Assembly: GCF_014201415.1 (NCBI RefSeq)
Contig: NZ_JACHEH010000004.1
Coordinates: 248,001 to 312,000 of the forward strand
Source: Chelatococcus composti
Lineage (GTDB): Bacteria; Pseudomonadota; Alphaproteobacteria; Rhizobiales; Beijerinckiaceae
DNA: 64,000 nt
Direction of reading: 5' to 3'
Shown here: piece by piece, positions 57,226 through 64,000 of the stretch
Layout: the number at the start of each line of letters is the position of its first letter
How positions within the stretch are numbered: position 1 is the stretch's first letter
The notes under the pieces: model-generated
Told to the model about the DNA's origin: nothing
The model's input: only the letters and a program-made list of their open reading frames with translations
The model's database searches: none
Translations under genes and position numbers: made by a program

Positions 57226-57897
57226 TCAGAAGTCCGCCTTGCCGCCGTGCTTCGCCGACCATTCGGCGGGAGCGTGCAGGAACTTCTCCACCTCGTCGAG
57301 GGTACTGGCGGCGAAATAACCGCGCTCGCGCGCCTCGGCCAGGACGTCCCACCACGTGGCGAGGGCGTGCATCTTGATGCCGTGCTCGGCGAGCGTCGCC
57401 GTGCTCTCCTTGAAGATGCCGTAGTGGAAGATGACGAAGGTGTGCTGCACGTCGGCGCCCGCGCGGCGCAGGGCCTCGGCGAAGGCGAGCTTGGAGCGCC
57501 CGTCGGTCGTCAGGTCTTCGACGAGCAGGACGCGCGCGCCCTCCTTGATATCACCCTCGATCTGTGCGTTGCGGCCGAAGCCCTTGGCCTTCTTGCGCAC
57601 GTAGAGCATCGGCAGCATCAGCCGGTCCGCCAGCCAGGCGGAGAAGGGGATACCCGCCGTCTCGCCCCCGGCCACGGCATCGATCGATTCGGTGCCGATC
57701 TCGGAAAGGATCTGCTCGGCGGCGAAGTCCATCAGCCGCCGGCGCAGGCGCGGGAAGGAGATGAGCTTGCGGCAGTCCACATAGACGGGGCTCGCCCAGC
57801 CGGAGGTGAAGATGAAGGGCTTCTCGGCGTTGAACTGGATGGCCTGGACCTCCAGCATCATGCGGGCCGTCTGTGAAGCGATGAATGACTTGTCCAT
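57226..57897 (-). CDS. pyrE: Orotate phosphoribosyltransferase
   Basis: A 223-residue enzyme converting orotate and PRPP to OMP. The type I PRTase motif is [21 protein letters not shown]; other family segments are [47 protein letters not shown] [20 protein letters not shown], and [25 protein letters not shown] 57897 gives the normal length. It lies 30 bases after pyrC and is the last gene of the pyr/TRAP operon, letting imported or endogenous orotate enter UMP synthesis. Confidence 0.95.
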
Positions 57898-57927
57898 GGT
57901 CCCTCGGCCCCCGGTTCGATTGTCCAC

Positions 57928-58995
57928 TCAGGCGACGGCGGCAGCGGCGCTGTCCGCGTCGGCGACCGTCCATGACACCGTCTCGCCACCACGGAAGACG
58001 TGCACCGCCTCGCCCGCGGGAAGAGAAACGTCCTCGGCGACCGCGCGCGGCCGGCGCACGAGGGTGATCGTTCCCTCGTTGACGGGCAGGCCGTAGTGGC
58101 GCGGGCCGTTGAGGCTCGCGAAAGCCTCGAACTTGTCGAGAGCGCCCTCCTCCTCAAAAACTTGCGCATAGCACGCGAGCGCGACGGGCGCCACGAACAG
58201 GCCCGCGCATCCACAGGCCGCTTCCTTGGCTGCGCGGGCATGCGGGGCGGTGTCGGTGCCGAGGAAGAAGCGCGGATTGCCGGAGGTGGCCGCCTTGCGC
58301 AACGCCAGCCGGTGCTCCTCGCGCTTGGCGATGGGCAGGCAGTAGTAGTGCGGGCGGATGCCGCCCTGGAAGATGGCGTTGCGGTTGAAGATGAGGTGGT
58401 GCGGGGTGATGGTGGCGGCGACGCGCTCGCGCGCGCCCGTCACGTACTCCACGCCCTCCTTCGTCGTCACGTGCTCCAGCGTGACCTTGAGGCCGGGGAA
58501 GCGCCTGACGAGCGGGTCGAGCACCGTCTCGATGAACACTGCCTCGCGGTCGAAGATGTCGACCTCGGGCCGCGTGACTTCGCCGTGGATGAGCAGCGGC
58601 ACGCCCGCCTTTTCCATGGCGGCGAGCACCGGATGGATCTTCTCGATGTCGGTGACGCCGAAGTGCGAGTTGGTCGTCGCATGCTGCGGATAGAGCTTCA
58701 CCGCCACGATACGCCCGCTCTCGTAGCCGGAGACGACATCGGCCGGGTCGGTGTCGTCCGTCATGTAGAGCGTCATCAGCGGCTGGAAGCGGCTGCCAGC
58801 CGGCAGCGCGGCCATGATGCGCTCGCGGTAGGCGTCGGCCATCGCCGTCGTCGTCACGGGCGGTACGAGATTCGGCATGATGATGGCACGGCTGAACTGC
58901 GCGGCAGTGAAGGGCAGCACGGCCTTCAGCATGGCGCCGTCGCGCAGGTGAACGTGCCAGTCGTCCGGACGGCGGATGGTGATGGTCTCGGTCAT
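57928..58995 (-). CDS. pyrC: Dihydroorotase (class II)
   Basis: A 355-residue zinc enzyme interconverting N-carbamoyl-L-aspartate and dihydroorotate. The metal motif is [10 protein letters not shown] (His near 14 and 16), the carbamylated Lys is in VAVKLYPQ (near 100), further ligands lie in [10 protein letters not shown] and TLEHVTT, and the catalytic Asp in [10 protein letters not shown]. It starts one base after the stop of the hydrolase gene. The reaction is reversible, so in this operon it could work towards carbamoyl-aspartate. Confidence 0.95.
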
Positions 58996-58996
58996 C

Positions 58997-60274
58997 TTAC
59001 GGCTCCTTCGTCAGGGCCTCATAGAGCAGATCGACGCCTGCAAGGAAATCGGCAATCTCCATCGACTCGTCGGGATTGTGCGAGCCGTGCTCGTTGCGCA
59101 CGAAGACCATGGCCGCCGGGATGCCGGCATTGGCGAAGACGGCAGCGTCGTGGCCCGCGCCGCTGGCGATGGTCTCGGCCGGCAGGCCAAGGCGGCGCGA
59201 GGCCTCGAGCAGGCGCTTCACCCAGCCTTCGTCCATGCGCCCCGGTGCCGCGTCCTGCCGCCGGTCAAAGATGAACTTCACGCCCCGCTCGCGGGAGATG
59301 TTGGCGCATTCCGTCTCGAAGAGCACGTAGAATGCTTCCAGCGTCTCGCGGCTCTGGCTGCGGATCTCGAAGGAGAAGGCGACCTCGCCGGGAATGCGCG
59401 TGGTGGCGTGCTCCTCCGGGTTCGTCGCGACGACGCCCACGGTCACGACGAGATCGAGGCCACGCTCCAGCAGTACGCGCCAGTGCTCGTCGAGCCGCGA
59501 GATGAGCTCGGCGAGGGCGAAGACCGCGTCCTTGCGCAGCCAGCGCGGCACGGCGCCGGAATGGCCGGCCTGCCCCTGGCACACGATGCGCTGGTGGCGG
59601 ATGTTGCCGCGGATGCCGGTGACGATCGCCGTCGGCCATTCGCGCGCCACCATCACCGGGCCCTGCTCGATGTGCAGCTCGAGGAAGGCGGCGATGTCGC
59701 GCTTGTCGACGAGGGGGGTGCCCTCCCTCACCTTCGCGACGTCGATGCCGACACCGGCGAGCGCCTCCGCGAGGCTGCGCGCACCGTCGCGCTGCCTCAG
59801 GTCGAGGTCCTGCGGGTTCAGCGCGCCGAGCAGGACGGAGGAGCCGATGTAGGGCTTGCCGAACCAGGGCGATTCCTCGCCGCGCAGGCCGATGACGCGC
59901 ACCGGCCGCGGCGGCGCGATCCCCTCACTCTTCATGCGCGCGAGCACCATCAGCCCGGCGAGCACGCCGGCCGCTCCGTCGAAGTTGCCCCCGCGGGGCA
60001 CGGAATCGAGGTGCGAGCCGACGAGGATGTAGGGGCCCGGCGCCTCGTCGGGCAGCGAGACGACGAGGTTGTCGCCGGCATCGCGCGAGGCGACGAGCCC
60101 CTCGCGCGCGGCGAGCCGCTCCATCACGCCCATGGCCGCCGTCTCGCCCTCGGCAAAGGCCTGGCGGGTGATGCCGACCCCGTCGAAGCCGAGCTCGCGC
60201 AGCTCCGAGAAGACCTCGACGGCGAGCGCCTCCCAGTCACGCTCGTTGCGTATCGGATGAGCGAGCGGTTTCAC
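58997..60274 (-). CDS. M20-type Zn-dependent amidohydrolase (N-carbamoyl-amino acid hydrolase / ureidosuccinase candidate)
   Basis: A 425-residue member of the hydantoinase/carbamoylase group of M20 hydrolases (N-carbamoyl-L-amino acid hydrolase, beta-ureidopropionase, allantoate amidohydrolase). Two-metal ligands: [15 protein letters not shown] (His near 88, Asp near 99), [16 protein letters not shown] (Glu near 133-134), ELHIEQGP (His near 201) and HNPDE near the C-terminus; [21 protein letters not shown] is typical. GTG start overlaps the pyrD stop (GTGA) and the stop is one base from the pyrC start. Between dihydroorotase and DHODase the obvious substrate is N-carbamoyl-aspartate, giving aspartate, CO2 and ammonia; this is inferred from context. 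Confidence 0.88.
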
Positions 60275-63380: not shown

Positions 63381-63443
63381 GGGAATAACGCCCTTTACGC
63401 TACGTCGGGGTCGTGCCGCTTGGGTTGATGACCGGTGGTTGGT

Positions 63444-63953
63444 TCAGTGGTCCTGGCCGCGATCGGCGAGCGCAAAGCGGTTCTCGACGCCGACGAGCTC
63501 GAGCAGATAGCGCACGCCGAGCAGCAGAAAGCCGACCGGCAGGGCCGCATAGAGCCAGACCATGGACACATCGAGCGTCGGGCTGGTCTGGCCTGAATTG
63601 ACGATAAAGCGCGCGAAATCGTAGCCGACCTTCGTCAGATACGCGCAGAAGACGAGGCCAACGGCATTTATGACGAAGGCCAGGATGCGCTGGAGGCCCG
63701 CCGGCAGGCGCCCGTAGAGCGCCGTCATGGCAATGTGGCGTCCCTGTTCCAGCGTGAGGCCGAGGCCGAGGAAGACGAGCCAGGCCAGCATGAACAGCGT
63801 CGCCTCCTCCATCCAGGCGAAGTGGAGGGAGAGCGAGGGCGCAATCACACGCACGAGCACGTTGACCACATAGCCAGCCGACATGACGATGAGCAGCAGG
63901 CCGATGATGTTGCGCTCAAAGGTGCGCAGGACAGTCAGGACTGTGCGGAGCAT
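63444..63953 (-). CDS. TRAP transporter small permease (DctQ-like)
   Basis: A 169-residue protein with four hydrophobic segments and the DctQ pattern: LLLIVMSAGYVVNVLVRV, LHFAWMEEATLFMLAWLVFLGLGLTLEQGRHIAMTAL and SMVWLYAALPVGFLLLGVRYLLELV. It lies 63 bases before dctM. A stop codon of another gene is found 30 bases upstream, at 63984-63986, which is expected to be the TRAP binding protein. Confidence 0.9.
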   Translation of the reverse strand: MLRTVLTVLRTFERNIIGLLLIVMSAGYVVNVLVRVIAPSLSLHFAWMEEATLFMLAWLVFLGLGLTLEQGRHIAMTALYGRLPAGLQRILAFVINAVGLVFCAYLTKVGYDFARFIVNSGQTSPTLDVSMVWLYAALPVGFLLLGVRYLLELVGVENRFALADRGQDH

Positions 63954-63983
63954 GGGTTGCGCCCTCGGTTTTCTTCACGAGGC

Positions 63984-64000
63984 TCAGTTGGTGATGCCGA
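63984..64000 (-). CDS. 3' end of the next upstream gene, possibly the TRAP substrate-binding protein (partial)
   Basis: Only 17 bases are visible. On the minus strand the last codons would read GITN followed by TGA at 63986-63984. Placement right before dctQ is where TRAP binding-protein genes (dctP) normally lie. The identity is a guess from position. Confidence 0.25.

Follow-up and report, generated by a model that had tools for sequence, protein, structure and literature searches.

We describe an operon of Chelatococcus composti that most likely encodes the uptake and reductive degradation of orotate, a reading to which we assign a probability of about 80%. The operon occupies the right end of the window, that is, the whole 64-kb stretch of DNA that was analyzed (C4:248001-312000), which comes from a 3.7-Mb genome in 24 contigs that is 99.99% complete. 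In the proposed pathway, the tripartite ATP-independent periplasmic (TRAP) system DctPQM would import orotate, PyrKD, a class 1B dihydroorotate dehydrogenase linked to reduced nicotinamide adenine dinucleotide (NADH), would reduce it to dihydroorotate, PyrC would open the ring to yield N-carbamoyl-L-aspartate, and an M20-family enzyme, here denoted UreH, would irreversibly hydrolyze this intermediate to L-aspartate, CO2 and NH3; PyrE would divert part of the orotate to orotidine monophosphate and on to uridine monophosphate (UMP). Dihydroorotase works in both directions; the irreversible carbamoyl hydrolysis would pull the chain toward degradation. The observations behind this reading concern gene content, gene order and its recurrence, individual residues, sole gene copies and operator-like sites. 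A preliminary description of this DNA had already proposed an orotate or dihydroorotate uptake and degradation system, and this interpretation is now supported by a second pyrD gene, by an orotate-bound protein (4nn3) as the structure nearest to the binding protein, and by the recurring gene order.

The same description placed seven genes on the minus strand in tight coupling, and the open reading frame coordinates and family scores bear this out. They are preceded by dctP, which encodes the TRAP solute-binding protein (SBP) and of which only the 3' end falls within the window (63984..64000, minus strand); the remainder lies to the right (stretch L004:7985-9007), where the description had suggested that a binding-protein gene be sought. 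DctP matches TIGR00787 (224 bits, cut-off 175) and its gene ends 30 bases upstream of dctQ, the gene for the small permease (63444..63953; PF04290, 101 bits, cut-off 28.3), which is followed by dctM, that for the large permease (62100..63380; TIGR00786, 390 bits, cut-off 268); all three TRAP components are, in other words, present and linked. Next come pyrK, for the electron-transfer subunit of the dehydrogenase (61233..62075), at a distance of 24 bases from dctM, rather than the 25 first given, and pyrD (60271..61239), which was listed as an open reading frame extending to 61281, although its start is more likely the ATG at 61239, which stands behind AAGGAGG and leaves an overlap of about 7 bases with pyrK. 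The pyrD gene overlaps ureH (58997..60274; TIGR01879, a model of the hydantoinase/carbamoylase family, 274 bits, cut-off 204) in the sequence GTGA, and a single base separates ureH from pyrC, which encodes a class II dihydroorotase (57928..58995; TIGR00856, 453 bits, cut-off 293). The last gene is pyrE, for orotate phosphoribosyltransferase (57226..57927; NF001729, 386 bits, cut-off 245). Chance does not account for the arrangement: among the best 80 of 243 related loci, chosen via UreH and scanned with the operon proteins (E-value 1e-3, half of the query covered), 60 have PyrK, PyrD and the hydrolase in an uninterrupted run on the same strand.

The transporter points to the substrate. Among solved structures, DctP is by far the closest to 4nn3 (446 bits), the next SBP scoring 168 bits. 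For 4NN3, a protein of Maridesulfovibrio salexigens, a 2024 paper (PMC11668362) reports bound orotic acid and describes an Asn in place of the acidic residue of related SBPs and a Lys, pointing away, in place of their Arg; orotic acid is also named among the new TRAP ligands from the Enzyme Function Initiative screen in a review (PMC5812351). By alignment, the window DctP is a close relative that shares both the unusual Asn and the Lys, along with the carboxylate-binding Arg and Asn, and it is predicted to bind orotate. In an alignment of 26 other DctP sequences, which include one near-identical pair (L140 and L090) as well as L132, the Lys is present in all 26 and the Asn in 17, with Gln in 8 and Pro in 1. 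When DctP was used as the anchor to search 398 genomes of the phylum (E-value 1e-85), only two were retrieved, that of C. composti and G465; the result says nothing about linkage because the DctP of G465 is not located near UreH.

The dehydrogenase is of the class that can work as an orotate reductase. The best PDB match of PyrD is PyrDB (1ep1_A), aligned over almost the whole length, the class 1 Cys is retained in the motif NISCPN, and NF005574 (352 bits, cut-off 269) and TIGR01037 (305 bits, cut-off 270) are both matched. PyrK contains the iron-sulfur (Fe-S) domain PF10418 (45 bits, cut-off 23.9) with four Fe-S cysteines, and its best PDB matches are the partner subunits of class 1B enzymes (5ksw_B, 1ep3_B). 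Class 1B dihydroorotate dehydrogenases can reduce orotate with NADH, and PyrKD would most likely act in this direction. The preliminary description had made its reading depend on a second pyrD elsewhere in the genome, and one was found at C2:144471-145355 (275 bits), with the Ser that is the hallmark of class 2 (NVSSPN); these two are the only DHO_dh matches above the cut-off in the genome, and both were assigned to PyrD types. Judging from these motifs, de novo pyrimidine synthesis is covered by the separate Ser-type PyrD. A separately drawn sample of 297 genomes from the order contains 25 that encode UreH (E-value 1e-100). A PyrD adjoins UreH in 18 of these, each of which has another PyrD match scoring at least 256 bits elsewhere; the class of this second PyrD was checked in the C. 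composti genome only. The PyrK Fe-S model is a poor marker of the system because it matches in 67 of the 297 genomes, of which only 18 have a PyrD beside UreH.

The biosynthetic genes of the operon are a different matter. In a genome-wide scan, PyrE alone exceeds the PyrE cut-off (116 bits, the next one 39), and no class II dihydroorotase other than PyrC was matched. A PyrC-like protein, PyrC' (L020:5975-7315, contig C1), is linked to pyrB (L020:4959-5978) and, when aligned with the Aquifex enzyme, proves to have lost both His residues of HxH and the third metal His, so that it is almost certainly non-catalytic and is probably a structural partner of PyrB. By this comparison, the pyrC and pyrE genes of the operon are the only credible copies in the genome; as such, they must also serve UMP synthesis and, hence, must be expressed without orotate too. 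The interpretation put forward in the preliminary description is supported, with the correction that pyrC and pyrE do not represent extra copies kept for catabolism.

That the genome has no other credible dihydroorotase and orotate phosphoribosyltransferase is what would be expected of an operon for de novo UMP synthesis, in which an NAD-linked dehydrogenase would serve at low oxygen and the TRAP transporter and the hydrolase would have nothing to do with the pathway; class 1B enzymes are, moreover, biosynthetic in other bacteria. We regard this as very unlikely since pyrB is on another contig and is missing from all 80 related loci, the operon pyrD is not the only one in the genome, a carbamoyl hydrolase encoded in the same run would drain an intermediate of the pathway, and the solved structure nearest to the SBP had orotate bound. 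Plain de novo synthesis was accordingly rejected as the principal interpretation, on the strength of the second PyrD and of the consistent lack of PyrB.

Comparison of the 80 loci brings out the core of the system and its variations. PyrK and class 1B PyrD are each present in 62 loci, the regulator discussed below in 59, PyrE in 58, an aromatic-acid-type major facilitator superfamily (MFS) transporter in 41, PyrC in 30 (adjoining UreH in 29 loci), a porin in 24, DctP in 20 (with more than 250 bits in 18), aspartase (AspA) in 12 and malic enzyme in 2. Within the DNA available for each locus, a TRAP or MFS transporter is encoded in 55 of the 61 loci with a strong class 1B PyrD, compared with 3 of the 19 others, and both types occur together in one locus. 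For three loci, AspA was scored with the family model (686 and 689 bits, cut-off 681, and 679.7, just below it), and one MFS protein from Cupriavidus reached 353 bits with the model for aromatic acid:H+ symporters, whose cut-off is 419. Among 13 examined stretches, 7 combine DctPQM with PyrKD-UreH (in L140, on the opposite strand), 1 has an MFS transporter with PyrKD-UreH, 1 has PyrKD-UreH without a recognized transporter, 3 have UreH without PyrKD, and 1, that of G465, has only the DctP relative. The search for the same gene order elsewhere, suggested in the preliminary description, has thus yielded similar arrangements in other genomes. Beyond the orotate cluster, several loci of Burkholderia and Paraburkholderia (L081:12078-15732, also L082, L113, L116 and L119) contain a gene for a Rieske-type oxygenase and a further common family and, in L081 and L082, additionally, a sodium:sulfate-type symporter.

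The high frequency of PyrE in these loci, together with its status as the sole copy in the window genome and the existence of nine loci with PyrE-UreH pairs that lack PyrKD and PyrC, would also suit a system for orotate salvage and pool control only, in which the TRAP transporter feeds PyrE for UMP formation, and PyrKD with the hydrolase trims excess precursors. This seems unlikely given that in most of the Pandoraea and Burkholderia loci the run retains MFS-PyrK-PyrD-UreH but lacks PyrE and PyrC, and that the aspartase and malic enzyme genes point to use of the carbon. Under the preferred interpretation, orotate degradation, these two enzymes would take the carbon further.

UreH is a candidate N-carbamoyl-L-aspartate amidohydrolase (ureidosuccinase), a substrate predicted from residues and gene context. 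Its nearest named relatives, with 94% and 93% identity, are from Chelatococcus caeni and C. sambhunathii, respectively. The protein shares the fold family and, by alignment, the metal-site residues (H88, D99, E134, H201, H399) with M20 enzymes such as AllC, ErtE and 3n5f. It differs from these in extra Arg residues at positions 222, 244 and 293 and in the carboxylate site, where the Asn, which we take to correspond to the substrate-carboxylate-binding Asn of beta-alanine synthase, is replaced by Ser, Thr or Ala. A tree built from 105 UreH sequences and 3 paralogues separates UreH from the latter with a support of 99, and the PyrD-linked sequences cluster (7 label changes compared with 25.7 in shuffles). 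R222 and R244 are each conserved in 79 of 79 PyrD-linked sequences, 8 of 8 from PyrE-UreH pairs and 17 of 18 others; in the 3 paralogues, 3n5f and 1z2l, position 222 is V, N, Y or A, and position 244 is M. Position 293, which follows the carboxylate-site position, is Arg in 79 of 79 PyrD-linked sequences and Val in 8 of 8 sequences from PyrE-UreH pairs. The extra positive charge, which by alignment would lie near the active site, would fit a second substrate carboxylate, for example, that of carbamoyl-aspartate.

The two-gene PyrE-UreH units (L068, L083, L089, L104, L105, L112, L123, L125 and L129) may differ from the main type in their substrate; eight of the nine are in the tree and form one clade. 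In L068, L112 and L125, a common LysR-like gene is found upstream and common permease-like genes nearby, the types being assigned from sequence starts. A role of UreH as allantoate amidohydrolase was considered and rejected: the scores are far below the cut-offs of AllC (TIGR03176, 190 of 598 bits) and ErtE (NF058540, 280 of 520 bits), and a separate allantoinase-like and AllC-like pair is encoded on contig C5 (L021:8088-9512 and 9523-10770). In the allantoinase-like protein of this pair, the HxH motif reads QVH (GQVHC).

An XRE-type regulator of 304 aa, with an N-terminal HTH_3 domain and otherwise Pfam matches to helix-turn-helix models alone, is encoded 67 bases beyond dctP (L004:9075-9989, to the right of the window). 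This protein, which from the position of its gene is likely to bind the degenerate palindrome GTCTnAnnnnTnAGAC, would control the operon and a small downstream gene, presumably in response to an effector. The palindrome recurs across genera: 47 of 106 loci contain 97 sites with no more than one mismatch, and 88 of these sites are at most 400 bp away from the start of a labelled cluster gene. Four shuffles gave 12, 19, 23 and 23 sites, so that the observed number is approximately 4 to 8 times that in shuffled sequence. A matrix built from 51 distinct sites outside Chelatococcus scored highest in the 64-kb window at 57171..57190 (13.8, the next 3.9), upstream of the small gene, and in L004 at position 9061, upstream of dctP (18.7, compared with at most 3.7 in ten shuffles of L004). 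C. caeni and C. sambhunathii have retained both sites; the interval between ureH and pyrC yielded none. A genome-wide operator search returned two matches with zero mismatches, which are circular because these two sites themselves had served to define the pattern, and three other places with one or two mismatches (control, 1).

The small gene (56805..57119, minus strand) encodes a 104-aa protein with no Pfam match. Three divergent families of small proteins of similar length in these clusters look homologous in profile comparison (probabilities of 99.0, 96.1 and 72.1%, the last one weak), and one or another of these is encoded in 53 of the 80 loci, so the 104-aa protein is a proposed member of the regulon. 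Between this gene and the operon, 3' of pyrE, is a perfect hairpin of 10 bp (57189..57215, minus strand), which is terminator-like and has no T-run directly after it. Further downstream (53493-56676, minus strand) are TctA-TctB-TctC-like genes for a tricarboxylate-type transporter, of which Pfam confirmed TctC only.

Several observations weigh against the interpretation of the operon as an orotate degradation system. PyrK scores below the cut-off of every NCBIfam PyrK equivalog model (at best, 134 of 314 bits) and is therefore divergent, and UreH falls short of the cut-off of every named equivalog, so that these families do not specify its substrate. The window genome contains no aspartase above the cut-off (461 of 681 bits), so the aspartate would enter general metabolism. 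The reading does not account for the expression of pyrC and pyrE without orotate. Both operator sites of the operon carry two mismatches to the consensus, and C. albus has the site upstream of dctP, with none found before the small gene. Among the 80 loci, 18 lack a class 1B PyrD, one group consisting of PyrE-UreH only; this sample was ascertained through UreH, includes short contigs, and over-represents Pandoraea and Burkholderia. Finally, the characteristic DctP Asn is replaced in 9 of the 26 aligned sequences, and the Asn/Lys pair is also found in the DctP of L132, which is 47% identical and belongs to a cluster without UreH, so that these residues alone do not prove orotate binding.

The L132 locus (L132:8998-11837, genome G465) encodes this DctP relative together with DctQ and DctM, and the starts of the neighboring genes resemble those of pyridine-acid degradation genes. 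From this similarity, the 4NN3-type SBPs may, as a group, bind several heteroaromatic acids. The sharing of the key residues with such a cluster, the occurrence of UreH and PyrC without PyrKD in some loci, and the distance of UreH from the named equivalogs would all be compatible with the import of another substrate under the same logic, be it dihydroorotate, carbamoyl-aspartate or some other ring acid, to which PyrKD and UreH would be tuned. With orotic acid held in the closest structure by far, and with a PyrD that keeps NISCPN and aligns with PyrDB along almost its full length, we consider this highly improbable and retain orotate as the predicted substrate.

The chemistry of orotate degradation has been known since the 1950s: Clostridium (Zymobacterium) oroticum converts orotate to dihydroorotate, carbamoyl-aspartate and, finally, aspartate. 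A comparable logic underlies reductive uracil degradation, where PreTA, dihydropyrimidinase and beta-ureidopropionase reduce the ring, open it and remove the carbamoyl group; the window operon follows these three steps in parallel, but with enzymes of the orotate pathway and with aspartate, not beta-alanine, as the predicted product. Compared with the C. oroticum pathway, the window operon is proteobacterial and includes an importer, an XRE-type regulator with its operator, a gene for the hydrolase, and the housekeeping pyrC-pyrE in the same run. What the two have in common are a dihydroorotase and an NAD-linked dehydrogenase of class 1B, represented here by a PyrD above the family cut-offs and a coupled pyrK, and listed as such for C. 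oroticum in PMC10395836; for the ureidosuccinase step, the window operon offers as a candidate the carbamoylase-family hydrolase with its extra Arg residues. A Desulfovibrio relative (L127) has the order DctPQM-UreH-PyrC-PyrE, and no description of the pathway behind 4NN3 was found in the open literature. The preliminary description had called a TRAP-fed pathway for a pyrimidine acid unfamiliar; the orotate-binding TRAP protein, like the degradation chemistry, is already known, but no description of the operon, the regulon or the hydrolase gene was found in the open-licence literature, which, with most subscription papers outside its scope, is no proof of novelty. To our knowledge, ureidosuccinase is an enzyme without an assigned sequence.

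Taking the recurrence and the operator sites together, we lean, with less assurance than for the operon itself, toward a widespread and hitherto undescribed orotate regulon, mainly in Proteobacteria, that would consist of the XRE regulator and its palindrome, interchangeable importers (of the TRAP or the aromatic-acid MFS type, and frequently accompanied by a porin), a class 1B dihydroorotate dehydrogenase serving as orotate reductase, the ureidosuccinase gene and a new family of proteins of about 105 aa. Some lineages would have captured the housekeeping pyrC-pyrE genes, such that a single operon serves both the synthesis and the breakdown of pyrimidine. If this is correct, genes would be assigned to the orotate degradation pathway, including a candidate gene for ureidosuccinase, and family-level names of UreH such as "allantoate amidohydrolase" would be corrected. 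The orotate ligand of the TRAP protein would acquire a metabolic purpose, and the operator and the small protein would lend themselves to direct tests. Use of orotate as a source of nitrogen and carbon would then be predicted for many bacteria of soil and water.

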